A DNA stretch of 27,841 nt from a virus. Below, piece by piece: positions 704 through 17,813 of the stretch (positions are counted from its first letter, which is position 1; each line of letters starts with the position of its first letter). Location of the stretch: the IMG/VR virus record IMGVR_UViG_3300032240_001134, positions 1 through 27,841 of that record, one strand, 5' to 3'. Position numbers and translations under genes: made by a program. Under the pieces are notes generated by a model that was not told the origin of the DNA, did not search any database, and worked only from the letters and a program-made list of their open reading frames with translations.

Positions 704-1158
704 TGACTTGGTACACAAAGATTTCAAAAGACATTTCGTATATCCCAGATGCTGTGGACTATTTTAATAGCGAGCTATTGGTTGCTAGAAATGAATGCCG
801 TATAACGGGTAATATAGAAAGAGCAGCCGCCGGTATGCCCGGCATTGTAGAACAACGATTTAGTCAGCTTCAAGAAATTGAAGCAATTTTGGAATATTTG
901 AATATTGAATTACGCCGACTTAAAAGTCAACATTTTCGTAAGTACTTAGAAAACTATCAACGTGCTCTAAGTAGTCGAGATTGTGAAAAATTTGTTGAAG
1001 GTGAGGCAGACGTTGTTGACTTTGAAAAAATTATCAATGAGTTTGCTTTACTTCGCAACAAATGGTTAGGCATTACCAAAGCACTTGATCAGAAACAATG
1101 GCAACTTACTAACATTGTAAAACTTCGTGTTGCTGGTATGGAAGATGCTACGTTATAA
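703..1158 (+). CDS. uvsY: UvsY-like recombination mediator
   Basis: UvsY helps UvsX displace gp32 single-strand binding protein and assemble on ssDNA. The 151 aa are close to T4 UvsY (137 aa), helical and rich in charged residues. The segments LRRLKSQHFRKYLENYQRAL and DVVDFEKIINEFALL-NKWLGITKAL fit the marine UvsY layout: a basic middle helix, then a helix ending in W-G/L-x-x-A-L. Identity to T4 itself looks low, so the call rests on length, pattern and position between uvsX and uvsW. It starts at ATG 703 inside TAATG. A strong terminator follows 24 bases after the stop, so uvsX-orf80-uvsY end as one transcript. Confidence 0.78.
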   Translation: MTWYTKISKDISYIPDAVDYFNSELLVARNECRITGNIERAAAGMPGIVEQRFSQLQEIEAILEYLNIELRRLKSQHFRKYLENYQRALSSRDCEKFVEGEADVVDFEKIINEFALLRNKWLGITKALDQKQWQLTNIVKLRVAGMEDATL

Positions 1159-1182
1159 ATCATTTTACCAAATTGAACTCAG

Positions 1183-1216
1183 TGGGCCTTAAATAATATT
1201 GAGGCCTATTTTTTTT
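1183..1216 (+). terminator. Rho-independent terminator after uvsY
   Basis: Arms 1183-1192 and 1199-1208 form a 10-bp stem (8 Watson-Crick pairs plus two G-U pairs) with a 6-base ATAATA loop. Eight T follow directly (1209-1216). It lies 24 bases after the uvsY stop and just before the promoter of the next gene, so it separates two transcription units. Confidence 0.9.
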
Positions 1217-1225
1217 CTATATATG

Positions 1226-1254
1226 TTGACTTTGCTAAAAAGAGAGTTTATAAT
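1226..1254 (+). promoter_or_regulatory. Sigma70 promoter, TTGACT-17-TATAAT, adjacent to the ATG
   Basis: TTGACT at 1226-1231 and TATAAT at 1249-1254 are separated by exactly 17 bases. The usual start point, 6-7 bases after the -10 box, falls on 1260-1261, the first base of the next gene's ATG. No Shine-Dalgarno is placed to serve that ATG. A leaderless transcript is predicted. Confidence 0.8.
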
Positions 1255-1260
1255 TACAAT

Positions 1261-2451
1261 ATGAACACTGTTGACAATTTAGTACTTAAAATCGTAAATT
1301 ATGTGACCCCCACGATCGAAGAATGTATTTCTTCTCGTGATGCAAGGGTCCTACGAAGCATGGCTAGTAACATTACCAGTCAATATTTTATCACTGAAAA
1401 TCAATCTAAACTAATAATTAAAATATTGAAGGAAAATTCAAAAAAAATGCCTGAATTTTCTGAAGAAATTGACCAAATAATTACCACTGCGTTGTGGTCA
1501 AGATCATTTAGACAAATTCCTGAGATAAAAAAACTGTATATTTCAAAAAATAATGATGGCGATTCAGTGCTATGTCTTGAAAGCTCTTTTATATCCACAG
1601 TAAGGCATAAAATTTCTCAAATTTCAAAAAATGTTGAAGGAATTAACATAGTCTCCCCTGGCAAAATTTTTCATGCCGACCTGACTGAAAAAAATATTGT
1701 TATACTAGTGGAAGCATTTTCTTCGTTGGACTTTGAAATTGATGAGCTGATAAAACATCACTACAAAACCATAAAATCTTGGTCAAAAACTGAGGTTGAA
1801 GACCAGTTTTTAATTACAAATATTACACACCAAACTTTTCACAAACAAATTGCCGCAGACATTGGCCTTGAGACTCATGCCAGTGATCCTATTATTTTTG
1901 ATAGGAGTGTTAGGTATCAATACAAGATAAAAAAACCTGAAAATTTCACCGAAAATTTGATAAATCTTTTGGCATTTAGAGAGCAATCTAAAATTTGGAT
2001 TGACAATACAAAGTATACTTTAAACTCAATCATCAGTGCATTAGTTGAACTAAAACGTTTACCGGTGTTAGTTGTATTCAATAGTGAAAATAATTCTACA
2101 CTGACAAAAAACGTAGAAAATTTGGCAGAATCATTGAAAGAAAACAACATAACTGATAATGTGGGGATTTATTTTAGATTAACAAATGATGACAGCGGCA
2201 AAAAATTTAATACAATCATTGCAGAAAACAATTACAATAAATTTTTAACAGATACCACAAAAGTAGTTGGTATACAAAGTGGAAGAATTCCAAAATTTTT
2301 CTTAAATTCTCCATGGAAGCCTATGAGTGTGATATTTGTAGGCGGCGGTTCGCTAAGACACAATAAAACTAGTGTGTATGCAAATGGTTGCGATTTAGTT
2401 ATTTCTTACTGCGAAAAAGATCCTTTAATTATTTACAAACCATGGTTATAA
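1261..2451 (+). CDS. Unknown 396-aa protein between uvsY and uvsW
   Basis: I do not recognise a named family. The N-terminal ~80 residues are helical and include a segment (FITENQSKLIIKILKEN) that reminds me of uncharacterised proteins of marine T4-like phages. The C-terminal half alternates hydrophobic strands and helices (LPVLVVFN, NVGIYFRL, KVVGIQSG, MSVIFVGGG, CDLVISYCE), like a Rossmann or helicase C-terminal fold, but no Walker A or DExx motif is present. It is visibly richer in A/T (AAA, AAT, ATT codons) than uvsY and uvsW beside it. It has its own promoter after a terminator, and its last 10 bases overlap the uvsW start, so the two proteins are probably made together. A role with UvsW is inference. 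Confidence 0.8.
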   Translation: MNTVDNLVLKIVNYVTPTIEECISSRDARVLRSMASNITSQYFITENQSKLIIKILKENSKKMPEFSEEIDQIITTALWSRSFRQIPEIKKLYISKNNDGDSVLCLESSFISTVRHKISQISKNVEGINIVSPGKIFHADLTEKNIVILVEAFSSLDFEIDELIKHHYKTIKSWSKTEVEDQFLITNITHQTFHKQIAADIGLETHASDPIIFDRSVRYQYKIKKPENFTENLINLLAFREQSKIWIDNTKYTLNSIISALVELKRLPVLVVFNSENNSTLTKNVENLAESLKENNITDNVGIYFRLTNDDSGKKFNTIIAENNYNKFLTDTTKVVGIQSGRIPKFFLNSPWKPMSVIFVGGGSLRHNKTSVYANGCDLVISYCEKDPLIIYKPWL

Positions 2452-3911
2452 AATTAGTTATTAAAGACGAAGTTAACATTAAAATTGAGGGTCTTCCATT
2501 AGACGCTCGAAAAAAGTTAGCCAACACATTTAAGTACGAAAATCCAACGGCAAGGTATCACCCGGCTTACAAATTGGGCCGGTGGGATGGCATGGTTAGT
2601 ATGTTTGGACTAGGTGGCAACGGCTACTTGAGCCAGCTTGAAAAAGTATTAGAAGTTTTATACAACCAAAATATTGATATTGAAGAAGTAGAAGATTTAC
2701 GCACTACTAGCAAGATTGAATTTACAGAAATTACAAATAGTTACTGGGCAGATATGGGAAAGGTATGGCCGGAAGGACACAGATTTGCTGGGCAACCTAT
2801 TATGCTACGCGACGATCAAGTTGAGGTTGTAAACCGCTTTTTTACCAATACACAAGCACTACAAGAAGTTGCCACAGGTGCTGGTAAAACTATTATGACA
2901 GCGACATTAAGTCACTGTGCAGAAAAATATGGCCGTACTATCGTCATTGTACCTAACAAAGACTTAGTTGTACAAACAGAAGCTGACTATATTAACGTTG
3001 GATTAGATGTAGGTGTTTATTTTGGAGATCGTAAAGATCTTGGCAAAATGCATACTATTTGCACATGGCAAAGTCTTAACGTATTAGACAAGAAAAGTAA
3101 GAATTGGGATTTAGATCTTGCACTAACTCTTGCAGATTTCCTTGATGGTGTACGCACAGTTATTGTTGACGAAGTCCACATGGCAAAAGCAGAAGTTCTT
3201 AAGAATTTGCTGACACAAAACTTAGCAAATGCTCCTATCCGCTGGGGACTAACTGGTACGGTTCCTAAAGACGATTTTGAAGCGCAACCTATTTTTGCAT
3301 CAATTGGGCCAGTTGTTGGCGGAATCAAAGCACACCAGTTGCAAGAGATGGGTATTTTAAGCAATCTCCATGTTAACATTGCCCAACTTATAGATTTACC
3401 AGAATTTAAATCTTATGCAGAAGAATTAAAATATCTTGTTACGAACCCTGACAGGATGAAATACATTGCACAATTAGTCAAAGGCTTATCAGAATCAGGC
3501 AACACATTAGTTCTAGTTAATAGAATTGATTCAGGCAAACAATTAATAGAATTATTAGACGACGCTGTTTTTATTTCAGGCGAAGTAAAAGGCACTAAAC
3601 GACAAGAAGAGTACAAAGAACATGCAACAAATGATAACAAGATTACTGTGGCGACTTATGGTGTGGCCGCTGTGGGTATTAATATCCCCCGTATTTTTAA
3701 TCTGGTTCTTCTTGAGCCCGGAAAGAGCTTTGTTCGCGTTATACAATCAATTGGGCGAGGCATTAGAAAAGCGGAAGACAAAGACTTTGTACAAATCTGG
3801 GACCTTACTTCGACCTGCAAGTTCGCCAAGCGTCACCTCACAACGAGGAAGAAATTTTACAAGGATGCCAAATATCCGTTCACGATTGAAAAGATAGATT
3901 GGCAAAAATAA
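2442..3911 (+). CDS. uvsW: UvsW superfamily 2 DNA/RNA helicase
   Basis: UvsW unwinds branched DNA and R-loops, and in T4 shifts replication from origin-primed to recombination-primed initiation. The 489 aa match the T4 protein (503 aa). Helicase motifs are intact: ATGAGKT (motif I, residues 144-150), DEVH (motif II, 243-246), LTGT (motif III, in GLTGTVP) and QSIGRGIR (motif VI, 435-442). The small N-terminal domain with HPAYKLGRWDGMV precedes the helicase core, as in UvsW. ATG 2442 is preferred over an in-frame ATG at 2388, which lies 64 bases inside the upstream gene, whereas 2442 begins the conserved domain and overlaps by only 10 bases. Confidence 0.95.
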   Translation: MVIKLVIKDEVNIKIEGLPLDARKKLANTFKYENPTARYHPAYKLGRWDGMVSMFGLGGNGYLSQLEKVLEVLYNQNIDIEEVEDLRTTSKIEFTEITNSYWADMGKVWPEGHRFAGQPIMLRDDQVEVVNRFFTNTQALQEVATGAGKTIMTATLSHCAEKYGRTIVIVPNKDLVVQTEADYINVGLDVGVYFGDRKDLGKMHTICTWQSLNVLDKKSKNWDLDLALTLADFLDGVRTVIVDEVHMAKAEVLKNLLTQNLANAPIRWGLTGTVPKDDFEAQPIFASIGPVVGGIKAHQLQEMGILSNLHVNIAQLIDLPEFKSYAEELKYLVTNPDRMKYIAQLVKGLSESGNTLVLVNRIDSGKQLIELLDDAVFISGEVKGTKRQEEYKEHATNDNKITVATYGVAAVGINIPRIFNLVLLEPGKSFVRVIQSIGRGIRKAEDKDFVQIWDLTSTCKFAKRHLTTRKKFYKDAKYPFTIEKIDWQK

Positions 3912-3917
3912 GGAATT

Positions 3918-4424
3918 ATGCAAATATTAACATTAGACAATGAGACATTCTCATTAAACAATTTACCAGATGAGGTAGATGAAAATACTAGATTCGCAGT
4001 ACTAGATAACAGTGATCCAAAAGAACCAGATTTTTTCTTTATGCCATTAATATTCTTAGAATCATTTAATGCTCCGGCAATGGTACTGAGAATTGGTAAC
4101 GATGAAGTTACAATGCCATTGGATTGGTCAATTGCCGTGGGAGACAGTACAGCGGCAAGCGATATTGAAATTTTACCTTTAACCAGCTTAAATGACAGAG
4201 GATTTGAGGCGCTAGTGTTTAATCCTCTTAGTAGCTTTAGGGTAGAATTTAAGAAGATTGAAATTGTAAATTTTTACAGCGATGTTAAATGGTACTTTCC
4301 TAAAATGAAAAACGGGCAACTGTTAGCAACTCCAACCCGTGCTGGCCATAAACCTGATTGTGTTTACTTTGTCAAAGAGATTAATAGACAAAGTGAAATT
4401 ATACAGCTGGATAAAATACTCTAA
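3918..4424 (+). CDS. Conserved hypothetical of aquatic T4-like phages (168 aa)
   Basis: Function unknown. The sequence is mostly beta with few basic residues, and carries the striking blocks FIFLESF-like (LIFLESFNAPAMVLRIG), MPLDWSI, LPLTSLNDRGFEALVFNPLSSFR and DVKWYFPKMKNGQLLA. I remember the same blocks from marine T4-like phages, always without a function. AAGGA lies four bases before the ATG (TAAGGAATTATG), only six bases after uvsW, so it is co-transcribed with uvsW. Its stop overlaps the next ATG (TAATG). No zinc, nucleotide-binding or membrane motif is visible. Confidence 0.85.
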   Translation: MQILTLDNETFSLNNLPDEVDENTRFAVLDNSDPKEPDFFFMPLIFLESFNAPAMVLRIGNDEVTMPLDWSIAVGDSTAASDIEILPLTSLNDRGFEALVFNPLSSFRVEFKKIEIVNFYSDVKWYFPKMKNGQLLATPTRAGHKPDCVYFVKEINRQSEIIQLDKIL

Positions 4425-4708
4425 TGGGAAGCCTTACACCCGGGGTTGGACTAGTGTATGAACGCAACGGTGAAGAGATTTATGCTCGAGAAGTTGGCGC
4501 ACCTACAGCTGAAAGAAAGTTAATAGGATACATGTACGAAAACAAAAAAGACCCTAGAACTAGTGACGGTCGTCCATTGATCGAACACTTAAGAGAAGAT
4601 CAAATGTGGGGAGAAATTCGTCGAATGGCTCCTACCAATCCAGCTTTACAAAAGACCCTTGATCGTGCTATAATGATATACAAGTTGAGTAAGGATAAGT
4701 TAAAATGA
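4424..4708 (+). CDS. Conserved hypothetical (94 aa)
   Basis: Unknown function. It begins with a small beta-hairpin part (LVYERNGEEIYAREVG), followed by a conserved-looking block (DPRTSDGRPLIEHLREDQMWGEIRRMA) and a basic C-terminal helix. This block is familiar to me from marine T4-like phages without assignment. It starts in a TAATG overlap with the gene before and ends in an ATGA overlap with the gene after, so it is a member of the five-gene coupled series that runs from 3918 to the DnaE-like gene. Confidence 0.82.
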   Translation: MGSLTPGVGLVYERNGEEIYAREVGAPTAERKLIGYMYENKKDPRTSDGRPLIEHLREDQMWGEIRRMAPTNPALQKTLDRAIMIYKLSKDKLK

Positions 4709-5181
4709 GCGAAAAGATTGAACTTAAAGAGAAGATACAGGCTGTAGATCAAAATGTCCGAGAGTTGTGGGACGCAATGGATGCCGATCAACAAAAATCT
4801 CTTAAGTCTGAACTTTTTATTCTTAACAGATACATCAGCAATGTAAAAAGCAGTGACCCGGAAGTACAACAACACTTTGTACTCACCGTGAATGAATACT
4901 TTAATAAGAACTGGAACGACTTACAGAAACACCCCAAATTACTATGGTTATTGTTGTGTATGTGCAGTTATAATGGTAAAACATTTTTTCATGAATGGAT
5001 TGGAAATAAAAAGAAATCTGGTACTGGTGGCAAGAAATTAAAATTTCTTGAAGAAATTTATCCTAATAAAAAAAGAGATGAACTAGAGCTTATGGCAGAA
5101 CTTGCCTCTGATAAAGACATGAAAGAACTTGCTCGCAAATACGGAATGGATGAAGCTATTATTGCTAAAAAATTAAAATGA
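4705..5181 (+). CDS. Helical hypothetical (158 aa), possibly a gp62-type clamp-loader subunit
   Basis: Not firmly recognised. The protein is basic and helical. Features visible are LFILNRYIS near residues 35-44, VNEYFNKNW, KHPKLLWLLLCMC and FHEWIGNKKK, with a C-terminal helix-turn (ELARKYGMDE). The order 'F-x-x-N-R-x-x-S ... VNEY ... K-x-x-WI-x-K/ LAx-YG' loosely parallels T4 gp62 (FMVENALS ... KRYGKWAK ... LAKRYQVN), and the length (158 against 187 aa) is compatible. I see no statistically certain match. It is coupled on both sides by ATGA/ATGATG overlaps and lies upstream of a zinc-finger protein and a DnaE-like protein, so a replication role is plausible but inferred. Confidence 0.8.
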   Translation: MSEKIELKEKIQAVDQNVRELWDAMDADQQKSLKSELFILNRYISNVKSSDPEVQQHFVLTVNEYFNKNWNDLQKHPKLLWLLLCMCSYNGKTFFHEWIGNKKKSGTGGKKLKFLEEIYPNKKRDELELMAELASDKDMKELARKYGMDEAIIAKKLK

Positions 5182-5873
5182 TGACTCTAATGGATACTAA
5201 ACCTTATGCGTGTCAATATTGTAACGGCAAATATTCTAAAGAAAAAACGTTAGCGGTACATGTTTGCGAACAAAAACGCAGGGCCTTGGCACAAAATGAA
5301 CGTCATGTATTGTTAGGTTTTGACACATATAATAGATTTTATAAAAAAACACAAAATGCCAAGCAAGACAAAACTTATGAAGAATTTCGAAAGAGTTCTT
5401 ATTATAATGCTTTTGTAAAATTTGGTAGTTTTGTTAGTAATGTTAATCCGTTATACCCGGACAGATTTATTGATTATGTTGTAACTAGCGGAGTTAAATT
5501 AGATCATTGGTGTCGTGACGAATTATATGATAGCTATGTTGTTGATCTTGTTAAAAGAGAACCGGTCAATGTTGCATTAGAAAGAAGTATTAAACATATG
5601 ATATCGTGGGGCGATGCAAATAATGCACAATGGAATCATTACTTTCATTATGTAAGTCTAAGTCGTGCTGCCTATGATATTAAAGATGGTAAAATAAGCC
5701 CGTGGTTAATATTAAATTCGTCTAGCGGTAAAGAAATGCTTAAGAAGTTTAATGATGAACAGTTAAACGCAATTATGGTAATAATGGATGTTCCGTTTTG
5801 GATGAATAAATTTAAAAGAGCAACCAATGATGTTGACCTAGTTAAACAAGTAGTTAAGGAGTCAAATATATAA
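5178..5873 (+). CDS. Zinc-finger N-terminus protein (231 aa) in the replication cluster
   Basis: The N-terminus carries one zinc-ribbon or finger-like motif, C-x2-C-x12-H-x-C, in YACQYCNGKYSKEKTLAVHVC region (about residues 14-33). The rest is helical (YNAFVKFGSFVSNVNPLYP, LYDSYVVDLVKREP, MLKKFNDEQLNAIMVIMDV). No enzyme motif is visible. The helical part resembles in length and helix pattern T4 gp59 helicase loader (217 aa), but I cannot show homology. Start candidates are ATG 5178, 5181 and 5190; 5178 keeps the overlap with the preceding stop. It is followed by TAATG into the DnaE-like gene. A role in binding DNA is inferred from the finger. Confidence 0.82.
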   Translation: MMTLMDTKPYACQYCNGKYSKEKTLAVHVCEQKRRALAQNERHVLLGFDTYNRFYKKTQNAKQDKTYEEFRKSSYYNAFVKFGSFVSNVNPLYPDRFIDYVVTSGVKLDHWCRDELYDSYVVDLVKREPVNVALERSIKHMISWGDANNAQWNHYFHYVSLSRAAYDIKDGKISPWLILNSSSGKEMLKKFNDEQLNAIMVIMDVPFWMNKFKRATNDVDLVKQVVKESNI

Positions 5874-6451
5874 TGCCAGATATTGATATTGATTTTGCTA
5901 ACAGAACAAAAGCACTTGAGCATTTTAAACATGTTACGGCCGCAATTGAAGATAATGGCACTTTTAAAAAACACAATACCGGTATATACTGTACTTCTGT
6001 GCCGTACAATCCTCTTACAGGAATAAGTACAATAGACTATAAAGAAGCAGAAAATAGAGGGTATTTTAAGATAGACTTTCTAAATGTTAGTGTGTATGAG
6101 GGCGTGAGAGATAAAGCTCACTTAAAACAACTAATGGAGACTGAGCCACTATGGGATCTATTACTTCAAGACGAATTTGTAAATCTATTATTTCATTTGA
6201 ACGGGCATGGGGCGGTACTGAGGAAGACTTGCCCAACTTCCGTGGAACAATTATCTGCCGTCCTAGCAATGATCCGCCCTGCCAAGAGGCATTTGATTGG
6301 TCAGGATTGGACGACGATTATGAAGGAAGTTTGGACGATCCCAGAGACTGGTGAATACTACTTTAAAAAGGCACATGCTGTTGCTTATGCAATGGTAGTT
6401 GTGGTGCAGATGAACTTAATCTGCGAAAGTATTAGTTACGAGTATAGTTAA
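5873..6451 (+). CDS. Mini DnaE-like protein (Pol III alpha palm/finger remnants, 192 aa)
   Basis: Several signatures of bacterial replicative polymerase Pol III alpha (DnaE) occur in family order in a protein one sixth of its size. They are PDIDIDF at residues 2-8 (DnaE PDFDVDF, two catalytic Asp), KHNTG at 33-37 (KHAGG), YFKIDFL at 64-70 with D68 (VKFDFLGL, third catalytic Asp), WDLLLQ...LLFHLNGHG at 94-113 (FDMLQ...VFQLES-G), AMIRP at 132-136 (ALFRPGP) and FKKAHAVAYAMV at 164-175 (FNKSHSAAYALV). PHP, thumb, beta-binding and OB parts are absent. A full polymerase is therefore impossible, and a compact derivative is the simplest reading. SD AAGGAG lies 14 bases upstream, and its stop overlaps the convergent gene by four bases. 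Confidence 0.85.
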   Translation: MPDIDIDFANRTKALEHFKHVTAAIEDNGTFKKHNTGIYCTSVPYNPLTGISTIDYKEAENRGYFKIDFLNVSVYEGVRDKAHLKQLMETEPLWDLLLQDEFVNLLFHLNGHGAVLRKTCPTSVEQLSAVLAMIRPAKRHLIGQDWTTIMKEVWTIPETGEYYFKKAHAVAYAMVVVVQMNLICESISYEYS

Positions 6452-6822
6452 CGAACCCTGCGTACAAGTTGTACTGATTTGCGTTTTACACGCTTAATAG
6501 TTAAATTCATTAGGTTAACCACTGGACCTAAAATAATGTTGGTATCTTTACTGTTAAATGTTTTTATGGCATAAGCAAATGGTTGTATTTGAGCCCTACA
6601 AAATATATTAATAGGAAATTGACGGTTTGATTCCCACCACCAAGTTTCACCTATTTCTAAAAACAATGTTTTTTCTTCTGGGGTTTTGATAGCGTTTAAA
6701 TCGTAAAAACTTGTAACGTATTGATCTTGGTTGATAATAATACCAACATACTCATTGTCACCATAGTTTATTACACTAATAAACGGTAAATTTTGTTCTA
6801 TATTGTCTCTTAGTTTTGCCAT
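6448..6822 (-). CDS. Minus-strand hypothetical (124 aa) inside the plus block
   Basis: Unknown protein. The first part is beta-rich (FISVINYGDNEYVGIIINQDQYVTSFYDL); then come a tryptophan-rich segment (GETWWWESNRQFP) and a basic tail (IKRVKRKSVQLVRRVR). It is the only minus-strand gene between 1 and 19.5 kb. Its end overlaps the convergent stop of the DnaE-like gene by four bases. The start codon is shared with a late-promoter octamer that faces the other way. No clear Shine-Dalgarno stands before the ATG. It looks coding because the frame is open for its whole length and ends exactly at the convergent stop. I remember related sequences in aquatic T4-like phages but no function. Confidence 0.75.
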   Translation of the reverse strand: MAKLRDNIEQNLPFISVINYGDNEYVGIIINQDQYVTSFYDLNAIKTPEEKTLFLEIGETWWWESNRQFPINIFCRAQIQPFAYAIKTFNSKDTNIILGPVVNLMNLTIKRVKRKSVQLVRRVR

Positions 6823-6827
6823 AAATA
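6820..6827 (+). promoter_or_regulatory. T4-type late promoter (CATAAATA)
   Basis: CATAAATA differs from the T4 late consensus TATAAATA at one base. With the T4 spacing the transcript would begin near 6833, giving a 16-base leader before the structural gene at 6849. The first three bases are also the start codon of the divergent 124-aa gene. Confidence 0.6.
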
Positions 6828-6848
6828 CTGTAAAGGATCCTGCGTCTC

Positions 6849-7673
6849 ATGCAAAAAATCTCAACATATTTATATCCAAATAGAATTGAACTATTAGCTG
6901 ATCTGGCAGGCTTTACTACGGAGTATACCAACGTGTATCAAAGAACAGTGAAAATATATAACGGGATTGATAATATCATTGAATTTGATATTAAAAATGC
7001 TGATCAAAAAAGAATAGAGACCAGAACTGGGCAGAGTCCTGTTATAACTCAAATTGAATTAAATCTTATGGATGCTAGTGGTAATGCCCTACCAAACAGT
7101 CCATATACTATAACACCTACAACACTTAAAGGCATTGCTACTGCTACTATACCACAAGAAGATTTAGATGGGTTACAACCTCAATTTTTAAAATATAGTG
7201 TAACTGCTCTTAAAGACAGCAATGATGTGATATTATATGGAGACAGTAGATTTGGTGCTGTCGGTAGAATTGAACTAGTTGGTGATGCAATGCCAACCTT
7301 TAAGGATCCAATTATATACGATACGTATACTGGAGAAATTGATTTAAATGGTAATGTTATAAATCATTTCAGTGCAATGCCTACTAAATTTTACGAAGCA
7401 GTAGCTACAGAACTTGTTGACGTTAGCGTTTATGTTACCGGATTTATTGGCACAATTTGGCTTCAAGGAACTAGAAAAGATACTATTAATACTGAAGCAT
7501 TTAAAAATGCAACACGCATTCAATCTACAACATTATCTGTTGCAACAACAACAACGGTTGAATTTAATAACATTGATGTATCCGAATTAAGTTATCTTCG
7601 AGTAAGTTTCCAAGGAAATAATCCACTTACTCCAACCGGAACAGTTGACAAAGTTGAATTAGATCCGCTATAA
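6849..7673 (+). CDS. Probable virion structural protein (274 aa)
   Basis: A 274-aa protein built mainly of beta strands. The N-terminal block (ISTYLYPNRIELLADLAGFTTEY, then RTVKIYNGIDNIIEFDIKNADQKR) has the look of an Ig-like N-terminal domain of baseplate or fibre proteins, such as BppU_N. I remember near-identical N-termini from proteins labelled virion structural in marine T4-like phages. The middle (YTGEIDLNGNVINHFSAMPTKFYEAVA) and the C-terminal part (VYVTGFIGTIWLQGT ... VSELSYLRVSFQGN) are also beta-sandwich-like. A late promoter sits directly upstream, consistent with a structural role. Which part of the virion it forms cannot be told from sequence. Its last codons contain the -35 box of the primase promoter. 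Confidence 0.8.
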   Translation: MQKISTYLYPNRIELLADLAGFTTEYTNVYQRTVKIYNGIDNIIEFDIKNADQKRIETRTGQSPVITQIELNLMDASGNALPNSPYTITPTTLKGIATATIPQEDLDGLQPQFLKYSVTALKDSNDVILYGDSRFGAVGRIELVGDAMPTFKDPIIYDTYTGEIDLNGNVINHFSAMPTKFYEAVATELVDVSVYVTGFIGTIWLQGTRKDTINTEAFKNATRIQSTTLSVATTTTVEFNNIDVSELSYLRVSFQGNNPLTPTGTVDKVELDPL

Positions 7674-7674
7674 T
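7645..7674 (+). promoter_or_regulatory. Consensus sigma70 promoter TTGACA-18-TATAAT before primase
   Basis: TTGACA (7645-7650) and TATAAT (7669-7674) are both perfect, separated by 18 bases, and lie inside or across the end of the structural gene. The ATG of gp61 is at 7680, only five bases after the -10 box, so transcription should start at or next to the ATG. Confidence 0.8.
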
Positions 7675-7679
7675 AAGGC

Positions 7680-8681
7680 ATGAGCCTAATAGCGGATACA
7701 CTACTCTCTTATCTACCGTTAAAACGAAAAACTACTCCTAGTGGTTGGATTAGTTTTAATGCTCCATGCTGTGGAGATAAAAGACAGCGCGGTGGGTTCA
7801 TTGTCAATGCAGGCGAAGCAGTAAGCTATCATTGTTTTAACTGTCAATTTAAAGCAAGCTGGCAACCAGGCAGAACAATCAGTCAAAAGATGAACAAGCT
7901 CATGCGCTTGCTCAATATTCCTGACGATTCTATTAATCAATTACGATTAGAAGCACTACGGTTAAACGACACATCGACAACTGAAATTCGTAGCATCATT
8001 CCTAAGTTTGAAACAAGGGCGTTGCCAATAGATTCTATTAGTTTTGAAGAATTAAACACATTCTTAAAACTCCCAGACGGAGATTACGCAGTTCCAACAA
8101 AGTTTACTGAAGCATACGCATACTTGATTGATAGAAAAATCGATCCGTGGAGTTATCCATTCTATTGGTGTCCTAGAACAGGATTTAATAATAGACTTAT
8201 CATTCCGTTTTTATACAAAGGTGAAATTGTAGGTTGGACTGCCCGTGCTTTTAGTGATGCTAAACCTAAGTATCTAAGCGAACAACAACCTGGATATGTG
8301 TTCAATCTAGATGCACAACACGATAATAGACAATTCGCAATTATCTGTGAGGGGCCTTTCGATGCGCTAAGTATTGACGGGTGTGCGTTACTTGGTGCAG
8401 AAATTAAAGACAGTCAGAATTGGCTACTTAAACAGCTAGGCAAAGAAATTATATTGGTTCCGGATAGAGATCACGAAGGCCCTAAAACAGTAGAACAAGC
8501 AATTGAATTTGGGTGGAGTGTTAGTATGCCTGACTGGCCCAAAGGTGTTAAAGATGTAAACGATGCCCTGTGTAAGCTAGGCAAGCTGGCAACATTATGG
8601 CTAATTATATCAGCGAAAGAATCCAACAGTCTTAAAATACAATTGAGAGCAAAAAAATGGTTCAAAGAATACTTAACATAA
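7680..8681 (+). CDS. 61: DNA primase (T4 gp61-like)
   Basis: gp61 makes the RNA primers for lagging-strand synthesis and works with gp41 helicase as the primosome. The 333 aa match T4 gp61 (342 aa). An N-terminal zinc-binding part carries CCGD (C30, C31) and YHCFNC (H51, C52, C55). The TOPRIM part has IICEGPFDALS (E224 as the acidic residue), VPDRDHEG (261-267, the DxD) and KDVNDA (291-296). ATG 7680 follows AAGG only three bases upstream, too close for a normal Shine-Dalgarno, in line with a leaderless message from the promoter above. The 3' end overlaps the following 38-aa gene by 25 bases. Confidence 0.95.
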   Translation: MSLIADTLLSYLPLKRKTTPSGWISFNAPCCGDKRQRGGFIVNAGEAVSYHCFNCQFKASWQPGRTISQKMNKLMRLLNIPDDSINQLRLEALRLNDTSTTEIRSIIPKFETRALPIDSISFEELNTFLKLPDGDYAVPTKFTEAYAYLIDRKIDPWSYPFYWCPRTGFNNRLIIPFLYKGEIVGWTARAFSDAKPKYLSEQQPGYVFNLDAQHDNRQFAIICEGPFDALSIDGCALLGAEIKDSQNWLLKQLGKEIILVPDRDHEGPKTVEQAIEFGWSVSMPDWPKGVKDVNDALCKLGKLATLWLIISAKESNSLKIQLRAKKWFKEYLT

Positions 8682-8773
8682 TTTTATATCCCTTGCACAA
8701 GTGGCAAGAACGCCGAGCATTTAAAAAACGTTTGGAAGAATTGCGGAAACGTGATCCTTTTATTTACAAATGA
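8657..8773 (+). CDS. Small basic protein (38 aa) between gp61 and carbamoyltransferase
   Basis: A short ORF with a hydrophobic N-terminal helix (MVQRILNIILYPLHKW) and a strongly basic, charged helix (ERRAFKKRLEELRKRDPF). It starts inside the end of gp61 and its TGA overlaps the ATG of the carbamoyltransferase (ATGA). I remember a very similar small protein ending in RKRDPFIYK in aquatic T4-like phages, which favours a real gene. The composition suggests a membrane-anchored, cytoplasm-facing basic peptide. Function unknown. Confidence 0.7.
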   Translation: MVQRILNIILYPLHKWQERRAFKKRLEELRKRDPFIYK

Positions 8774-9729
8774 TTAGTTGGGGGATAAACGCTCTTAACC
8801 ACGGCAGTAGTGTTGCTGTGTTTAAAGATGGCAAATATATCAACAATGTAATATCTACCAATGACAACTTATCTCCGGAGATGTATAAAAATTTTCTTGA
8901 GTATCATGGAACACCTGATAGGATATTTTGGTATGAACGCCCTTGGGTTAAGAAAGCGAGGCAAATACGTGCAGGACAATATAATACTGCATTTAGATTA
9001 GATAATCTTCCAAGTATTAATCTTAAGAAATGGGGACTAGGATATGCACCAATTACTTATACACCGCATCATGCTAGCCATGCAGCCGCAGGCTACTATA
9101 CCAGTCCTTTTAATCATTGTGCTGTTGTAGTACTTGATGCAATAGGCGAGTTTGAATCAGCATCAATTTGGAACTGCATACACGGTGAAATGACCAAAGT
9201 ATGGTCAAGGAGTTATCCACATAGCTTGGGATTATTCTATAGTGCTTTTACTCAGTTTGTAGGATTAACTCCAATCAAAGATGAATACTTGCTACAAAAG
9301 ATGGCTGAGCAAGGCGATCCAGATCGGTTCCTGCGATACATTAGAACTTATTTTCACCCCAATAAAGTTTTAGATTTAAACACAAACTTCCATCGAGGAG
9401 TGTTGCATTGGGATAATAATCAATTAACTACACTACAAGAACAATGCGATTTGGCCGCGGCAGTACAACAAGTATTTGAGGAACAGATAGAACTAGTAAT
9501 GACCACTGCCAGATTATACACCAATTCTGATTGTTTAGTTTACATGGGCGGTTGTGCTATGAACAGTACCGCTAATAAGAAGTATGTAGAACCTATGTTT
9601 AAGTATCGTTGGAGTTTGCCAAACCCCGGAGATCCTAGCAGTAGCATAGGTGCTGTTACATATCATACTAAAAATAGAGTTTGGAGGGACGACTGGGCTC
9701 CCGTCAAACATATTGCAATTAATGTTTAA
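8770..9729 (+). CDS. Carbamoyltransferase of the NodU/TobZ/HypF-like family, N-terminal ASKHA part only
   Basis: The family transfers a carbamoyl group from carbamoyl phosphate, via carbamoyl-AMP, to a hydroxyl or amine on a small molecule. Motifs visible are the HHxxH-type site TPHHASHAAAG (H100, H101, H104), VVLDAIGEFES (D123), the helical segment with LGLFYSAFTQFVG, and MGGCAMN (259-265). Length is 319 aa; full NodU/TobZ enzymes are about 550-600 aa and carry a C-terminal carbamoyl-adenylate domain that is absent here. Such short forms occur in T4-like marine phages. In a phage the substrate could be a modified DNA base or sugar, which is inference. It lies between primase and helicase, coupled to the 38-aa gene by ATGA. 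Confidence 0.85.
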   Translation: MISWGINALNHGSSVAVFKDGKYINNVISTNDNLSPEMYKNFLEYHGTPDRIFWYERPWVKKARQIRAGQYNTAFRLDNLPSINLKKWGLGYAPITYTPHHASHAAAGYYTSPFNHCAVVVLDAIGEFESASIWNCIHGEMTKVWSRSYPHSLGLFYSAFTQFVGLTPIKDEYLLQKMAEQGDPDRFLRYIRTYFHPNKVLDLNTNFHRGVLHWDNNQLTTLQEQCDLAAAVQQVFEEQIELVMTTARLYTNSDCLVYMGGCAMNSTANKKYVEPMFKYRWSLPNPGDPSSSIGAVTYHTKNRVWRDDWAPVKHIAINV

Positions 9730-9741
9730 CTAATATATAAT
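9713..9741 (+). promoter_or_regulatory. Sigma70 promoter TTGCAA-17-TATAAT before gp41
   Basis: TATAAT at 9736-9741 is perfect; TTGCAA at 9713-9718 matches four of six -35 positions; the spacer is 17. The gp41 ATG is at 9748, seven bases after the end of the -10 box, so the transcript is predicted to begin at the start codon. Confidence 0.65.
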
Positions 9742-9747
9742 TAAAAA

Positions 9748-11175
9748 ATGAAACAAAATACAGACTACGGATTTGAAATACAAAAATTGTACTTAGAGAT
9801 GATGCTAGGCGATGCGGCAACATTTGCACGATGCCAAAGTATCTTTGATCACACATTGTTCGATCGAAAACTACAAACACCTGCAGAGTTTATTAACAAA
9901 TATGTGCAGGATCATAGCGTGATGCCTACACAAGATATTATTAATGCAGCCACTGGATCTGATTTTAAAATTGCCACTGATTTACGTGATGAACACTTTG
10001 ACTGGCTTATGAATGACTTTGAAACATTTATTAGACACAAAGGACTCGAAAGAGCCATCCTTGAGTCTGCAGACATGTTAGAAAAAGGGGAATATGGCAC
10101 AGTTGAAGAAAAGATTAAGAAAGCAGTTCAAGTTGGTCTAAACAAAGACATGGGCACTGACTATTGGCAAGATCCTAAGGGACGATTACTAAAGATTAAA
10201 GATAAAAACGGCCAAGTAACAACTGGGTGGAAAACCTTAGACGATAAGTTATTTGGTGGTATGAATCGAGGCGAACTTAATATATTTGCCGCAGGATCAG
10301 GTGGCGGCAAATCGTTATTCCTTGCTAATCTCGGCGTTAACTGGGCGCTACAAGGACTCAATGTAATTTATCTCACTTTTGAGCTTAGTGAAGAGCTAGT
10401 ATCAATGCGTATTGATTCAATGGTTACAGGTATCCCAAGTAGGGAAATTTTTAAAAGTATTGACGACGTTGAAATGAAGGTTAAGATGATTGGTAAGAAA
10501 TCAGGTAGCCTTCAAGTTAAGTACATGCCAAGTGGTAAAAATGCCAACGATATCAGAGCATACTTAAAAGAGTATGAAATTAAAATGGGGCATAAAACAG
10601 ATGTGTTGTTAGTTGATTACTTAGATTTGCTAATGCCAATTAGTCGTAAAATTAGTGCTGAAAATTTGTTTATTAAAGATAAGTTTGTATCAGAAGAATT
10701 GCGTAACCTGGCAATGGAGAAGAAATGTCTGTTTGTTACTGCGGCACAGTTAAATCGCGGCGCAGTCGAAGAAGTAGAGTTTGATCACAGTCATATCTCG
10801 GGTGGCTTGAGTAAGATTCAAACTGCGGATAATGTGTTTGGTATCTTTACAAGTCGTGCTATGCGTGAACGTGGGCGTTATCAAATTCAGCTAATGAAGA
10901 CACGTAGTTCAAGTGGTGTTGGCATGAAACTTGATTTAGATTTTAATGTAGATACACTACGTATTAGTGATCTAGACGAACTTGAAAGTACCGGAGGCAC
11001 ACCTAGTGCCGGTAGCAGTTTGCTAGCCAGTATTAAACAACGTCAAACTGTAGATCCTAATACAGGTGAAATAAATCCGTTAAGTGGTGCACCAGTTCCA
11101 AAAATTAAAGCCGAAGTGCCTAGTAGTAAACTAAGAGAATTACTTAATAATTTGCCAGGGGATGATTTAGTATAA
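9748..11175 (+). CDS. 41: Replicative DNA helicase (T4 gp41, DnaB-type)
   Basis: gp41 is the hexameric 5'-3' helicase of the T4 replisome and partner of gp61. The 475 aa match T4 gp41 (475 aa). Walker A is AGSGGGKS (182-189) with the RecA-type core. Walker B is VLLVDYLDLL with D290. ELSEELVSMRID resembles the DnaB 'SLEM' region, and an LNRGAVEE-like AQLNR stretch follows. The N-terminal domain (about 1-150) is helical as in DnaB. The C-terminus is an acidic, flexible tail. No Shine-Dalgarno is present before the ATG (ATAATTAAAAAATG). It stands 18 bases after the carbamoyltransferase, with its own promoter. Confidence 0.95.
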   Translation: MKQNTDYGFEIQKLYLEMMLGDAATFARCQSIFDHTLFDRKLQTPAEFINKYVQDHSVMPTQDIINAATGSDFKIATDLRDEHFDWLMNDFETFIRHKGLERAILESADMLEKGEYGTVEEKIKKAVQVGLNKDMGTDYWQDPKGRLLKIKDKNGQVTTGWKTLDDKLFGGMNRGELNIFAAGSGGGKSLFLANLGVNWALQGLNVIYLTFELSEELVSMRIDSMVTGIPSREIFKSIDDVEMKVKMIGKKSGSLQVKYMPSGKNANDIRAYLKEYEIKMGHKTDVLLVDYLDLLMPISRKISAENLFIKDKFVSEELRNLAMEKKCLFVTAAQLNRGAVEEVEFDHSHISGGLSKIQTADNVFGIFTSRAMRERGRYQIQLMKTRSSSGVGMKLDLDFNVDTLRISDLDELESTGGTPSAGSSLLASIKQRQTVDPNTGEINPLSGAPVPKIKAEVPSSKLRELLNNLPGDDLV

Positions 11176-11180
11176 TCTTG

Positions 11181-11214
11181 TTGTAATATCGTTTTTTAGG
11201 TGTTATAATAAATA
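11181..11214 (+). promoter_or_regulatory. Composite promoter region before the GNAT gene (sigma70-like and late octamer)
   Basis: TTGTAA (11181-11186) with TATAAT (11204-11209) is 17 bases apart. Overlapping it, AATAAATA (11207-11214) is one base off the T4 late consensus. Either would give a leader of roughly 20 bases before ATG 11240, which has GGAAG seven bases upstream. Dual early and late use is possible. Confidence 0.5.
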
Positions 11215-11239
11215 CGTATATAATACTTGGAAGCGAATC

Positions 11240-11680
11240 ATGGAATTACATCACATCAGAGATATCACACACCCCTTGGCAGGGATCATTAAAGATGATC
11301 CAGTACGCCCACACATCCCTATCGAACAACGCATTAACGAGGCTGCTGAAATTATGATCCTTAAAGCAGGAGAAGAAGTTTTAGCAGCCACTTGCCTACA
11401 ATGGTTAAGTGAAGTTCCTGAGGATGAGCAAGATTTGATCAATATGAATAAAGCTAAAGATGTGGCTGTATTTTATACCATTTGGAGTTACTCGCCAGGT
11501 GCAGGTGCTCGATTATTACAAGAGGCAGCTAACTGGATTAAAACAGAATATCCCGTAAAAAGTATCGTAACTCTAAGCCCACAAACAGAAATGGCTCGCA
11601 AGTTTCATTTAAAAAACGGTGCTCGAATTCGTAGAGAAAATCCTACCAGTGTTAATTACGAATACTATAGTAAGGAATAA
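11240..11680 (+). CDS. GNAT-like acetyltransferase-fold protein (146 aa)
   Basis: The order of elements resembles the GNAT N-acetyltransferase fold: AAEIMILKAGEEVLAATCLQ (beta strands), VAVFYTIWSYSPGAGARLLQEAANWIKTEYPVKSI (strand, then the acetyl-CoA loop GAGARLL and helix alpha3), then VTLSPQTEMARKFHLKNGA, the usual strand and C-terminal helix with 'FHLKNGA' like 'FYEKNGF'. The classical Q/RxxGxG/A motif is seen only as SPGAGARL, so activity is uncertain. Proteins like this occur near late genes of T4-like cyanophages. It starts the late cassette and stops two bases before the first fibre gene, so it may modify a virion or host protein, which is inference. Confidence 0.7.
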   Translation: MELHHIRDITHPLAGIIKDDPVRPHIPIEQRINEAAEIMILKAGEEVLAATCLQWLSEVPEDEQDLINMNKAKDVAVFYTIWSYSPGAGARLLQEAANWIKTEYPVKSIVTLSPQTEMARKFHLKNGARIRRENPTSVNYEYYSKE

Positions 11681-11682
11681 CA

Positions 11683-12531
11683 ATGGGTCTTGCAACTAAA
11701 AGCCTTGTAACTAAAAATATTATTAGTAAAGATAACACACCTTCTATAGTTACTACTAATCTTCAGGCACATTTAGATGCTAGCATATCATATCCCGGGT
11801 CAACTATTTGGCCTGATGTATCAGGCAATAGCAACAGTTTCACTCTTAAAAAAGGACAAACTACCAGTAGCAGTACTGCTGTCGGGCCAACGTATCAATT
11901 TTCAAATAAAAATTACGGATTCTATTTTCGTCCAGACGGAACTTACAGTGATGCAGTAAACGACGGACAATGGCTCAGCGGCCCTACTAGTGTATTACAG
12001 ACCTATACCAGCGGTACCATCGATTGTTGGTTAAAAACACAGGCCAAGACTAGAGCAGTTGATTTTAGAGACAGTAGCGTAACTACTGCACATTGTATTA
12101 CTGCTAGGCAGCGCGATGGAAATTATAGTTATGGTGTTTTTAGCATAGGTGCTTATTGTGACAGTGCAGGACAACCACAACCAGGAGTTGCTGGGCGACT
12201 TTATTGGCATGGTCAAAATAGCGTAGTACAGGCGTTATCAACAGCTACGCTTACAGATAATACTGTATATCATATTGCAGTTACTTGGAGCGGATCTAAT
12301 TGCAAGTTTTACATAAATGGCACACTAGACAGTACTACTAGCGGCAATTACAGTATTCCTGCTGATAGCGGAGGAGCACCAACATATGGTCCAACCATTG
12401 GCGTATGGCCTGCTAGTAATTTTAACATACATCAGTTTAGTGGTGTTATCTATGCTGTTAAAATGTATAATGCACAACTGTCTGACACTCAAGTACTACA
12501 AAACTATAACGCATTAAAATATAGATTCTAA
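11683..12531 (+). CDS. LamG/concanavalin-like tail fibre protein (282 aa)
   Basis: The N-terminus MGLATKSLVTKNIIS is the short motif shared with four later fibre-like genes. From about residue 25 a LamG-like (ConA-like jelly-roll) domain is seen: LQAHLDASISYPGS, IWPDVSGN, GTIDCWLKT, YHIAVTWSGSNCKFYINGTLD, and the typical terminal FSGVIYAVKMYNAQLSDTQVLQNY. Such domains bind surface glycans. Ser, Thr and Asn are common and Cys is rare, as in secreted or virion proteins. It follows the GNAT gene by two bases and is read from the same late transcript. Probably a fibre tip or short adhesin. Confidence 0.8.
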   Translation: MGLATKSLVTKNIISKDNTPSIVTTNLQAHLDASISYPGSTIWPDVSGNSNSFTLKKGQTTSSSTAVGPTYQFSNKNYGFYFRPDGTYSDAVNDGQWLSGPTSVLQTYTSGTIDCWLKTQAKTRAVDFRDSSVTTAHCITARQRDGNYSYGVFSIGAYCDSAGQPQPGVAGRLYWHGQNSVVQALSTATLTDNTVYHIAVTWSGSNCKFYINGTLDSTTSGNYSIPADSGGAPTYGPTIGVWPASNFNIHQFSGVIYAVKMYNAQLSDTQVLQNYNALKYRF

Positions 12532-12535
12532 TACC

Positions 12536-12543
12536 TATAAATA
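12536..12543 (+). promoter_or_regulatory. Perfect T4 late promoter TATAAATA
   Basis: TATAAATA lies four bases after the stop of the LamG gene. The next ATG is at 12548, so the expected start point (six bases after the octamer) falls on or just past the ATG. It may drive a leaderless message of the 86-aa gene, or mainly the 1362-aa adhesin. Confidence 0.7.
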
Positions 12544-12547
12544 TTTG

Positions 12548-12808
12548 ATGCCACCCGGTGTCTTCTATTTGCCAGAACTATACGACTTTGAGCACTTTGC
12601 AACTGCTCCGTGGCCTCATATTCACCACAACTGGCAGTCTGACTGGGTAGATAGTGTAGATCATCTTGAAACTTGGTTAAATCGTTATGTGGGGCCGCAT
12701 TGGGCTAGCTGGGCATACGCACAACAACAAAATCAAGAATACTGGCAGGCCTGCATAGCATTTAAGTGGGCTAAACATAAAACCTTATTTTTACTAACTT
12801 GGACCTAA
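12548..12808 (+). CDS. Tryptophan-rich small protein (86 aa)
   Basis: Unknown, but unusual: nine Trp among 86 residues, with many His and Tyr (APWPHIHHNWQSDW, VGPHWASWAYAQQQ, KWAK, TLFLLTWT). ATG 12548 is chosen over the in-frame TTG at 12545. No Shine-Dalgarno is present and a late promoter ends four bases upstream. It lies between the LamG fibre gene and the adhesin. A fibre-assembly helper is a guess from position. Confidence 0.6.
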   Translation: MPPGVFYLPELYDFEHFATAPWPHIHHNWQSDWVDSVDHLETWLNRYVGPHWASWAYAQQQNQEYWQACIAFKWAKHKTLFLLTWT

Positions 12809-12835
12809 CTAAATATACAACAGCTAAAAAGTGCT

Positions 12836-12843
12836 AATAAATA
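12836..12843 (+). promoter_or_regulatory. T4-type late promoter AATAAATA before the adhesin
   Basis: AATAAATA with the extension TACTAT. The same 12-base string (TAAATATACTAT) is found before the gene at 17141. Here the ATG at 12848 follows four bases after the octamer, with no Shine-Dalgarno. Confidence 0.6.
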
Positions 12844-12847
12844 TACT

Positions 12848-15800
12848 ATGGGTTCAACATATTCAAACATTGCAATTAAAAGTATTGCATCATCAAATTC
12901 GTCAGTAAGTGTTCCAACAGTGAGTACAGTTGCCTTGACTAGTTCTATAGGAGCACTTAATAATACATTAAACACCAATGACATTGTTTATGCCACTGTT
13001 ACATTTTCAGAAGCGGTTGAAATTACAGGTGTTGTAGGTTCTACGCCGTTATTAACACTAACAATTGGTGTAAGTCCAGTAAGTGCTACGTACTATAGCG
13101 GCTCTAGGACTACTCAGATTGTATTTGCCTATACAATTTTATCTGGACAAAATGATGCTAATGGTATTAGCATTGGTGCAAATTCAATAACATTCAATGG
13201 CGGAAGCATTAAAAGTTTATCCGGAGTTACAGCAACTATAACCCATAGTGCTGTTACAGATAATCCTACTTACTTAGTTGATACTACTTCTCCAACAATT
13301 TCTAGTATCGGTATCACATCAATAACGGGCATATCAAATGGCTATGGAAATGCCGGCGACATTGTTAATGCAACCGTGGTATTTACTAAAAATATTACTG
13401 TTACCGGATCTCCTACACTAGCACTAAACATTGGCGGTACTAGTGTAATATCAGCATATAGTTCTGGATCTGGCACATCATCACTGGTATTTACGTATAC
13501 AATTTTATCCGGGCAAAATGATTCTAATGGTATTAGTATTGATGCTAACAGCGTAAGTTTAAATGGCGGCACACTTGTAGATTCGGTAGGAAATACAGCC
13601 ACTATTACTCATTCAGCAGTTACCGACAACGCCAGTTATAAAGTTGATACCTTACAACCTTACGTAACCAACGTTGCATTAACAGGTGCATCTGGTTCTC
13701 AAAATAATTTATTAAATGCCGGTGATATTGTAACAGCTAGCGTTACATTTTCTGAAATTGTAACGGTTACAGGGTCACCTTATATTGCTATTATTATAGG
13801 AGCAAGTGCTGTTAATGCTGGATATTCTAGTGGATCAAATTCTACTACTCTTACTTTTACGTATACAATATTATCGGGACAAACTGACGTAAACGGTATT
13901 AGTATTAATGCTAGCAGTATAAGTTTAAATGGTGGCTCTATTACAGATCTTGCTGGGAATCCAGCAACAACAACACATTCAGCAGTTACTGATAATTCAA
14001 CGTATCAAGTAGATACAACTAGTCCAACTGTTAGTTCAGTAGCATTTGGTACAACTTCTGGAACTCTTAACAGTATATTAAATACAGGTGATACTGTTCA
14101 AATTAATGTGGTATTTACTGAAACAGTAACAGTCTCCAGCGGGACTCCTTATATTGCTATTACTATAGGAGCAAGTGCTGTTAATGCTGGTTACATTTCT
14201 GGTAGTGGAACTTCTCAGCTAGTATTTCAATATACTATTTTAGCAGGACAAAATGATTCTAATGGTATTAGCATAGCGGCTAATTCTCTTGCCAGCAATG
14301 GCGCAACTATTGTTGATCTTGCCGGTAATACAGCAGTGTTGACTCATAATGCAGTAACAGATAATGCAAGTTATGTAGTAGATACAAGTGCTTCTACTCC
14401 TACATTAACTTCGGGATCGTTTACTACACTCGACAATGCTACAGTAACAATGCAAGAAGCTGGGACCGTTTATCTTGTTAATACCAGTGTATCAGTGACT
14501 AACGAAGCCAGTGTACTTGCTGCCGCTGATGCAAACTGGAATAGTGTAACTGTACTAGCTAATACTGCTACCAGTCTTCCGTTAACTGGCTTAAATAGCG
14601 GAACATATAGAGCCTGGGGCGTTGATTTAGCTGGAAATTTTAGTACTGGTGCTCCTAGTGCAAATAGCATAACTGTTAGTAACACAATTATACCAGTAGC
14701 AGGATCTTATACTCCGCAACTTGGCGCAACAGGAGTGCTTGTAACTAGTACAATTCAAATTACTTTTCAGACACCCATTCAACGGGGAACTGGAAATATT
14801 GAACTAAGAGTTGGATCAAGTACTGGTCTGTTGATAGAAAGTTTTATAGCAGCGTCGTCAAATCGAATAGCAATATCAGGAGTAACATTTACACTTTCTC
14901 CTACATCTTCTCTTAGTTATTATTCAACGTACTTTGTAGTATTCCCAAGCGGTTGTATTCAGTCTACTACTAGCGGAAACTGGGCAGGAACATCGAGTTA
15001 TTTTTTTACAACAGCGATAGCTACTGGAGCACCAGCAGGAAGATGGTTAGTTGCCGGCTCAAATGGTAACATTCTTTCTTCAAGCGATAACGGTGTTACA
15101 TGGAATTTTGTTGGATCTGCCGGCAACTGGTTAAATGGCGTAATTACCGGCGCAGCTATAGCAGGTGGAGTTATAGTTATAGTAGGAAACAACAGTGGTA
15201 ACACGACAACTACTTCCTTTTCTTATACTGGAGATTTTTTAAATTGGAATGCGGTTAATCTACTTCAAAGTGCTGAATATACTAGTGTAGCCTACGGAAA
15301 CGGAGTTTGGGCAATGGCAAGTCAAACTGGGCAAATTGTTATTTTATCAAGTTTTACCGGTTCAACAGCAACCACCAATGGAAGCGGTTATAATAACGTT
15401 GGATTTTGCGAAGCTAGCCAATACTTTTTCCTACAAACCACTAATGGTATATTCAGATTTACTGGGGTAGATGCCCCCAGCCTTGTTCAGGTATACACAG
15501 CATCAAACGTACTAACGTATGCTGTAGGTGGCCCAGGAATACGCAACAACACAATTATGTTTGCGCTACAATACGGAATTCTTAGAAGCGCAGACGGTGG
15601 CGCAACTTGGACGTTGATTACTACACCTGTAACAATTTCGGGTAGTGCAGATTGTCGGGGAGTAGCGTGGGTCACTGGAACCGTATGGATTGCTATAATA
15701 TATTCAAGTGCAGCCAGTACTAACTATTGTTATAGTTCTGACGACGGCGCAACATGGTCAATTCTAAGCGGAGGCCCTAATATTAGTTGGTGGTCGTGTG

Positions 15801-16936: not shown

Positions 16937-16938
16937 TT

Positions 16939-17115
16939 ATGAAAGCATATATTTACAGTAAACAATTGGATCAAACCTTATCCTTAATAAGTTCGGGGGT
17001 AGAAATGGTCTTTGATAGTCGAGAATCTGCCCTAGCTCAAGCAGTCAAAGTAGCGGGTGAGTTCAACAATGTTAACTACCTAGAAGTCCACGACTGGGAA
17101 CCCAAGTGCGAATAA
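16939..17115 (+). CDS. Small hypothetical (58 aa) after the adhesin
   Basis: Unknown. ATG 16939 follows the adhesin stop by two bases; an in-frame ATG at 16915 lies inside the adhesin and is less likely. The sequence (KAYIYSKQLDQTLSLISSG, then SALAQAVKVAGEFNNVNYLEVHDWE) predicts alpha/beta folding, with a Glu/Asp/Trp end. The gene ends exactly in a late promoter (the stop TAA is part of AATAAATA). Position suggests an accessory to fibre assembly; nothing in the sequence proves it. Confidence 0.6.
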   Translation: MKAYIYSKQLDQTLSLISSGVEMVFDSRESALAQAVKVAGEFNNVNYLEVHDWEPKCE

Positions 17116-17118: not shown

Positions 17119-17140
17119 TACTATTATTTAGAGGAACACC

Positions 17141-17809: not shown

Positions 17810-17813
17810 TGAT

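Follow-up and report, generated by a model that had tools for sequence, protein, structure and literature searches.

Promoters fused to the primase start codon across a large family of giant phages from fresh water: ribosomes probably read only the primase's own message

In phage T4, the genes e, soc and I-TevI, together with other homing endonuclease genes, are served by an internal late promoter whose RNA lacks an inhibitory arm (PMC2988022). The internal promoter lies in the 5' arm of a hairpin, such that the long RNA hides the initiation site and the internal-promoter RNA is open; the read-through transcript is early or middle, the protected gene is late, and the sequestered element is the Shine-Dalgarno (SD) sequence. 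Leaderless messages are known for lambda cI (E. coli work cited in PMC4929434) and for mycobacterial genes (PMC3898074, PMC4633059), in which the promoter spacing puts +1 on the A of the ATG and there is no SD. Here we compare with both systems the primase and helicase starts of a 27.8-kb virus fragment (IMG/VR record IMGVR_UViG_3300032240_001134, positions 1-27,841), referred to below as the window.

The genes of the window are T4-related (UvsX, helicases, primase, DnaB-like helicase and virion proteins), and its nearest cultured relatives, judged by the helicase (50% identity), are Pseudomonas phage PA5oct and its kin. In the reading developed here, which rests on comparative sequence analysis and to which we give a probability of roughly 0.6, a leaderless early/middle primase message would be translated and the late read-through message would be locked by a hairpin, the helicase having the fused promoter only. 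Ribosomes in this large family of giant freshwater phages would probably read only the primase's own message. If true, a giant phage runs two modes of translation initiation in parallel and uses the mode to decode the origin of a transcript. A replication gene would also be silenced on late RNA with no protein regulator involved, the timing of the classic T4 hairpin being reversed.

Promoters abutting the primase and helicase start codons

The elements on which the comparison is based are the following (nt, nucleotides):
7645..7650, + strand: -35 box TTGACA of the primase promoter; TTGAC/TTGAT boxes recur in relatives, in coding and intergenic contexts
7669..7674, + strand: -10 box TATAAT of the primase promoter, 5 nt ahead of ATG 7680; kept in 68/68 distinct relatives
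7680..8681, + strand: primase (gp61-like, Toprim) with a leaderless-type start; PHROG 47, E 1.4e-49, and a Toprim match
8770..9729, + strand: carbamoyltransferase gene in the primase-helicase interval (PF02543); start without a promoter
9713..9718, + strand: -35-like box TTGCAA of the helicase promoter; weak, inside the carbamoyltransferase C-terminus
9736..9741, + strand: -10 box TATAAT of the helicase promoter, 6 nt ahead of ATG 9748; 52/58 distinct relatives
9748..11175, + strand: replicative helicase (gp41/DnaB-like) with a leaderless-type start; PHROG 19, E 4.5e-66

The primase ATG is preceded by TTGACA, an 18-bp spacer, TATAAT and AAGGC, which is the sole 12/12 promoter site found in positions 1-20000, and the helicase ATG by TTGCAA, 17 bp, TATAAT and TAAAAA (10/12 matches). 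Both promoters (7645-7674 and 9713-9741), ending 5 and 6 nt before their ATGs, had been called in a first-pass annotation of the window, and both were confirmed. Its statement that neither ATG has a usable SD also held: both -10 boxes stand where an SD would be, and the AAGG at 7675-7678, only 1 nt from the primase ATG, is too close to serve as one.

Conservation was assessed in 80 IMG/VR relatives of the primase using the following rules: (i) Counts were made on distinct start regions. (ii) A -10 element was scored when at least 5/6 bases matched at 5-9 nt ahead of the ATG. (iii) An SD was considered usable when it matched over at least 4 nt at a usable spacing. The promoter and SD rules are of the E. 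coli type, and the host may differ. On this basis, all 68 distinct primase upstream regions carry the -10 element, at a distance of 5 nt (35 regions), 6 nt (20), 7 nt (10), 8 nt (2) or 9 nt (1), compared with a background rate of 4.2% at any ATG of the same loci. The helicase carries it in 52 of 58 distinct relatives, and the carbamoyltransferase ATG in none of 55. A PD-(D/E)XK exonuclease family (L100:18525-19241, - strand) exhibits TTGAC-17-TATAAT-6-ATG in nearly all relatives with a placeable start. Starts without a usable SD make up 47/59 for the primase, 45/50 for the helicase and 43/45 for the exonuclease, the remainder having 4-nt matches only. About 96% of the primase starts have a pyrimidine at -1, and the primase ATG assignment is supported by the codon-position variability (0.19/0.09/0.40), which begins at codon 2.

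In the window, the primase -35 overprints the C-terminal codons GTT GAC AAA (Val-Asp-Lys) of the upstream virion gene; in the relatives it either overprints that gene or is intergenic where the gene stops earlier. In relatives whose helicase is extended at the N-terminus, the -10 is placed at the extended ATG. Every one of the 63 loci in which another gene separates primase and helicase has the helicase promoter; by the strict criterion it is present in none of the seven loci without an insert, three of which match a looser motif only. Because the primase -35 persists in coding or intergenic DNA, the -10 tracks the extended helicase ATG and the helicase promoter follows the insert, it is the promoter itself that is kept. 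The fusion of promoter and ATG at the primase and the helicase is real and strongly conserved. Each of the two genes would be transcribed from a host-sigma70-type promoter that abuts its start codon, and the geometry and its conservation point to messages with a leader of 0 or at most about 3 nt.

Loci that are otherwise alike carry one of two divergent types of the carbamoyltransferase (about 40% or 60-75% identical to that of the window), and some have none.

A predicted hairpin over the primase start in read-through RNA

Three further features concern RNA that enters the primase from upstream:
6820..6827, + strand: T4-type late promoter motif CATAAATA, 21 nt ahead of the ATG of the upstream structural gene
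6849..7673, + strand: upstream virion structural gene, 274 amino acids (PHROG 14467, virion structural protein; the PA5oct counterpart was seen by mass spectrometry)
7666..7694, + strand: hairpin of read-through RNA only, CGCUAU/AUAGCG plus AGGC/GCCU with AUGA in the loop; -11.1 kcal/mol, z -3.43, with covariation

A motif of the CATAAATA type stands 17-23 nt ahead of the ATG of the virion gene in all 63 distinct relatives scored, and examples of this gene have AAGG-type SDs. In the window, the distance from the upstream stop codon to the ATG is 6 nt at the primase and 18 nt at the helicase, and no terminator-like site was found between the virion gene and the primase. Late transcripts from the virion gene promoter would run into the primase 6 nt further on.

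The primase ATG is surrounded by an inverted repeat (e.g., TTAGGC-ATG-AGCCTAA, TTAGAC-ATG-AGTCTAA and TAAGGC-ATG-AGCCTTA). In the predicted fold of the read-through RNA, the -10/discriminator pairs with codons 2-5 and the hairpin closes over the AUG, with no usable SD ahead of it. A second class of hairpin (class B, GCTATGAG..CTCATAGC) has the AUG inside the stem. The stem length within a locus is 4.8, compared with 3.4 (standard deviation 0.2) after the downstream arms were shuffled among loci. Similarly, the mean fold energy of positions -14 to +20 is -8.06 kcal/mol, compared with -5.34 (standard deviation 0.27, minimum -5.96 of 300) when arms were swapped between loci. Among the 22 distinct class A sequences, two base pairs vary with both partners exchanged (UA/AU and GC/AU), with a covariation score that was reached by 1/500 shuffles and by no slid version.

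The 5' arm of the hairpin consists of the -10/discriminator DNA upstream of the expected start point; therefore, only RNA entering from upstream can fold it. Primase RNA starting at the AUG has a mean of -0.94 kcal/mol. No hairpin occurs at the helicase starts (-0.2, unstructured) or in most exonuclease genes (starts at -1.2, nearly unstructured).

The primase's own message, beginning at or next to the AUG and devoid of the 5' arm, would be open and translated by the leaderless route, and the hairpin would keep the late read-through RNA untranslated. With one message open and the other locked, translation of the primase would depend on the origin of the transcript: primase would be made early/middle and silenced late. 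At the helicase, the fused promoter would act without a hairpin. The start-codon hairpin was not part of the first-pass annotation and is new here; it suggests a more specific reason for the leaderlessness of the primase.

As in T4 e, soc and I-TevI, the internal promoter lies in the 5' arm, and the predicted hairpin hides the initiation region in the read-through RNA and is predicted not to form in the internal-promoter RNA. Unlike the T4 switches, the read-through is predicted to be late and the gene belongs to early/middle replication, the internal promoter being of the sigma70 type and the upstream gene having the late motif (63/63). Moreover, the AUG itself is enclosed, in loop or stem, and there is no leader, most loci being without a usable SD. 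The primase hairpin is therefore described as working like the T4 switch class with reversed timing, and is not filed as a member.

In the window, the CAT of the conserved late motif (6820-6827), read on the opposite strand, is the ATG that opens a divergent minus-strand gene (6448-6822), such that one trinucleotide serves both the late motif and the start of that gene.

Competing explanations for the primase start

Several points weigh against a leaderless primase message with a locked read-through RNA. At a distance of 5 nt, the A of the ATG is only the sixth base after the -10, and if initiation fell on the eighth base (G), some transcripts would lack the start codon. The pairing is in part a consequence of the shared MS/GL start and the fixed -10, as swapped arms still give -5.3 kcal/mol. 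A DNA operator is another possible role of the palindrome. Many relatives have a weak helicase -35. The loci share a common ancestry, with many from similar lakes, and are not phylogenetically independent. The PA5oct primase hairpin is not significant (z -0.88), and the Rak2-type giants (Munch, GAP32 and CBB) and Phosso/Atu_ph07 have ordinary SD leaders.

The main rival for the palindrome is the operator, in which the leaderless promoter is real and a phage repressor binds the inverted repeat across -10/+1, thereby shutting the primase promoter without any RNA switch. The repeat does overlap the -10 and +1, which are sites of repressor binding, and symmetric changes of GC to AT and AT to TA would suit an operator that tracks a changing repressor. 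An operator fits less well with the wide sequence variation under which pairing stays, or with a repeat that is missing at the helicase and most exonuclease promoters. Several loci (L018, L035, L061, L073 and L077) pair well only if G-U is allowed, and the class B repeat is shifted, with the AUG in the stem instead of the loop; both observations speak for RNA. We regard the operator as unlikely, albeit a serious contender.

Alternatively, primase and helicase might be translated mainly from polycistronic mRNA by termination-reinitiation, the fused promoter being secondary. The short distances from the upstream stops in the window (6 and 18 nt) would suit this, as would the loci without a gene between primase and helicase, which have no fused helicase promoter and in some cases show AAGGA. 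Several relatives, however, keep the primase promoter even though the upstream stop is tens of nt away, and the read-through RNA has UAUAAU in the place of an SD and the primase AUG in a hairpin. This explanation seems to us improbable.

It is more improbable still that a genuine promoter starts transcription 7-9 nt downstream, within codon 1, or yields mostly short non-functional RNAs, with no leaderless translation. The commonest primase distance (5 nt) is indeed one base under the usual optimum, but the helicase and exonuclease distances peak at 6 nt, shifts over 5-9 nt keep the A of the ATG in the start window, and the pyrimidine at -1 speaks for initiation at that A. Finally, chance resemblance of A+T-rich sequence ahead of ATGs to -10 boxes, for which the A+T-rich genome and one conserved false case (SbcC, see below) might speak, is ruled out by the conservation of the fused promoters across relatives (68/68 over a background of 4.2%, accompanied by -35 boxes and a fixed spacing) and by permuted or shifted motifs with a -35, which give no comparable peak.

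Two probable initiation modes in one genome, and the fused promoters of cultured PA5oct

Leaderless-type starts in the window extend to three additional genes:
1226..1254, + strand: TTGACT-17-TATAAT, 6 nt ahead of the ATG of open reading frame (ORF) 1261-2451; third leaderless-type sigma70 gene, with the same architecture in 4/5 relatives
12536..12543, + strand: late motif TATAAATA of a leaderless-type late gene, 4 nt ahead of ATG 12548
12836..12843, + strand: late-like motif AATAAATA of a 1362-amino-acid gene, 4 nt ahead of ATG 12848

The window contains 14 sites with an exact TATAAT and at least 10/12 matches, compared with 1-4 in first-order Markov sequences. Three of them have an ATG 5-6 nt past the -10 (1261, 7680 and 9748), and ten have it 28-58 nt past the -10, mostly with AGGAG. 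The right-arm genes were correctly described in the first-pass annotation as having AGGAG leaders, which measure about 22-28 nt, with one of about 52. We also surveyed spacing in the window and two records of 345 and 356 kb, using strict TTGAC-N-(16-18)-TATAAT sites and the first ATG that opens an ORF of at least 60 amino acids. Eleven sites fall at 5-8 nt, none at 9-18 nt, and the others from 19 nt up, the leadered group lying at about 19-35 nt. A usable SD match was found in 47/55 leadered genes vs 2/12 short-distance genes. Permuted and shifted motifs with a -35 showed no comparable peak at short distance.

The T4-type late motif NATAAATA was scored in four genomes (the window and L085-L120) with permutations as the control, the reversed motif being invalid since ATAAATA is common to both. 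At 33 sites, about a quarter of those scored, it lies 4-6 nt ahead of an ATG (SD core in 1), and at 107 sites it lies 14-35 nt ahead (SD core in 70). The same short/long split as for the sigma70 sites indicates that leaderlessness spans more than one temporal class. The octamer is that of the T4 late promoters (TATAAATA), which are read by a gp55-type sigma, and a gp55-like late sigma is encoded by PA5oct and relatives; unlike in T4, part of the motifs lie close to an ATG, almost without SDs. Hence, of the earlier proposal that two initiation modes coexist and that primase and helicase use the leaderless one, the coexistence and the geometry are supported by the comparative evidence, and the restriction to those two genes is not, as the exonuclease, ORF 1261 and late genes share it. 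Compared with lambda cI and the mycobacterial genes, leaderlessness here is predicted, and it concerns both replication genes and late genes in a giant phage that has sigma70 as well as late promoters, alongside SD leaders.

Three candidates were rejected: the sliding clamp as a leaderless replisome gene (its first ATG is inside the SD leader of the true start); SbcC (its TATAAT is coding, IYNSL*, the ATG overlaps the upstream stop, and no -35 was seen at proper spacing); and a replisome-only rule, in view of the late structural genes and ORF 1261. The 396-amino-acid product of ORF 1261-2451 has only a sub-threshold match to the Pfam Zot domain (18.5 bits, cut-off 20.3).

The PA5oct primase, 33% identical to that of the window, has TTGACA-17-TATAAT-6-GTG. 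Its annotated start (NC_071039, 145884) is a GTG abutting the TATAAT, and another GTG stands 6 nt further on, at 145890; the second GTG fits a leaderless start, and the annotated gene probably begins 6 nt too early. The gene order is kept, the homologous virion gene having TATAAATA 5 nt ahead of its ATG, and the exonuclease (NC_071039, 158242) has the same TTGAC-17-TATAAT-6-ATG architecture. As an IMG/VR query, the PA5oct primase yielded one distant relative only, with TATAAT 6 nt ahead of the ATG. In the PA5oct primase region (L123:45866-45919), an alternative hairpin with the -10 in its loop folds at -10.8 kcal/mol (z -0.88 vs shuffles).

Phage-encoded bS21 has been proposed to bias ribosomes toward phage messages (PMC9723584), and E. 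coli ribosomes devoid of bS1, uS2 and bS21 remain able to translate leaderless RNA (PMC4929434). Like other known phages, PA5oct encodes bS21, as do 3/11 IMG/VR relatives searched (L127-L130; several of the records are fragments), the link to leaderless messages here being one of co-occurrence only. The earlier idea that leaderless messages favour 70S initiation and could stay active when the 30S is altered by the phage becomes testable in this way; bS21 lends it no direct support and is a lead. As cultured PA5oct carries the primase and exonuclease fusions, the effect of bS21-altered ribosomes on leaderless vs SD messages could be tested in the laboratory. We tentatively suggest, with the odds somewhat against it, that giant phages of this group generally use promoter-start fusion as a second way of initiating translation of selected genes, early and late, that the primase promoter DNA doubles as one arm of an RNA lock, and that phage bS21 may redirect ribosomes during infection from one message pool to the other, leaderless or SD.

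An Rfam scan detected two tRNAs and nothing else. The tRNA-Met(CAT) of the window has a fully paired acceptor end and thus looks like an elongator rather than an initiator.

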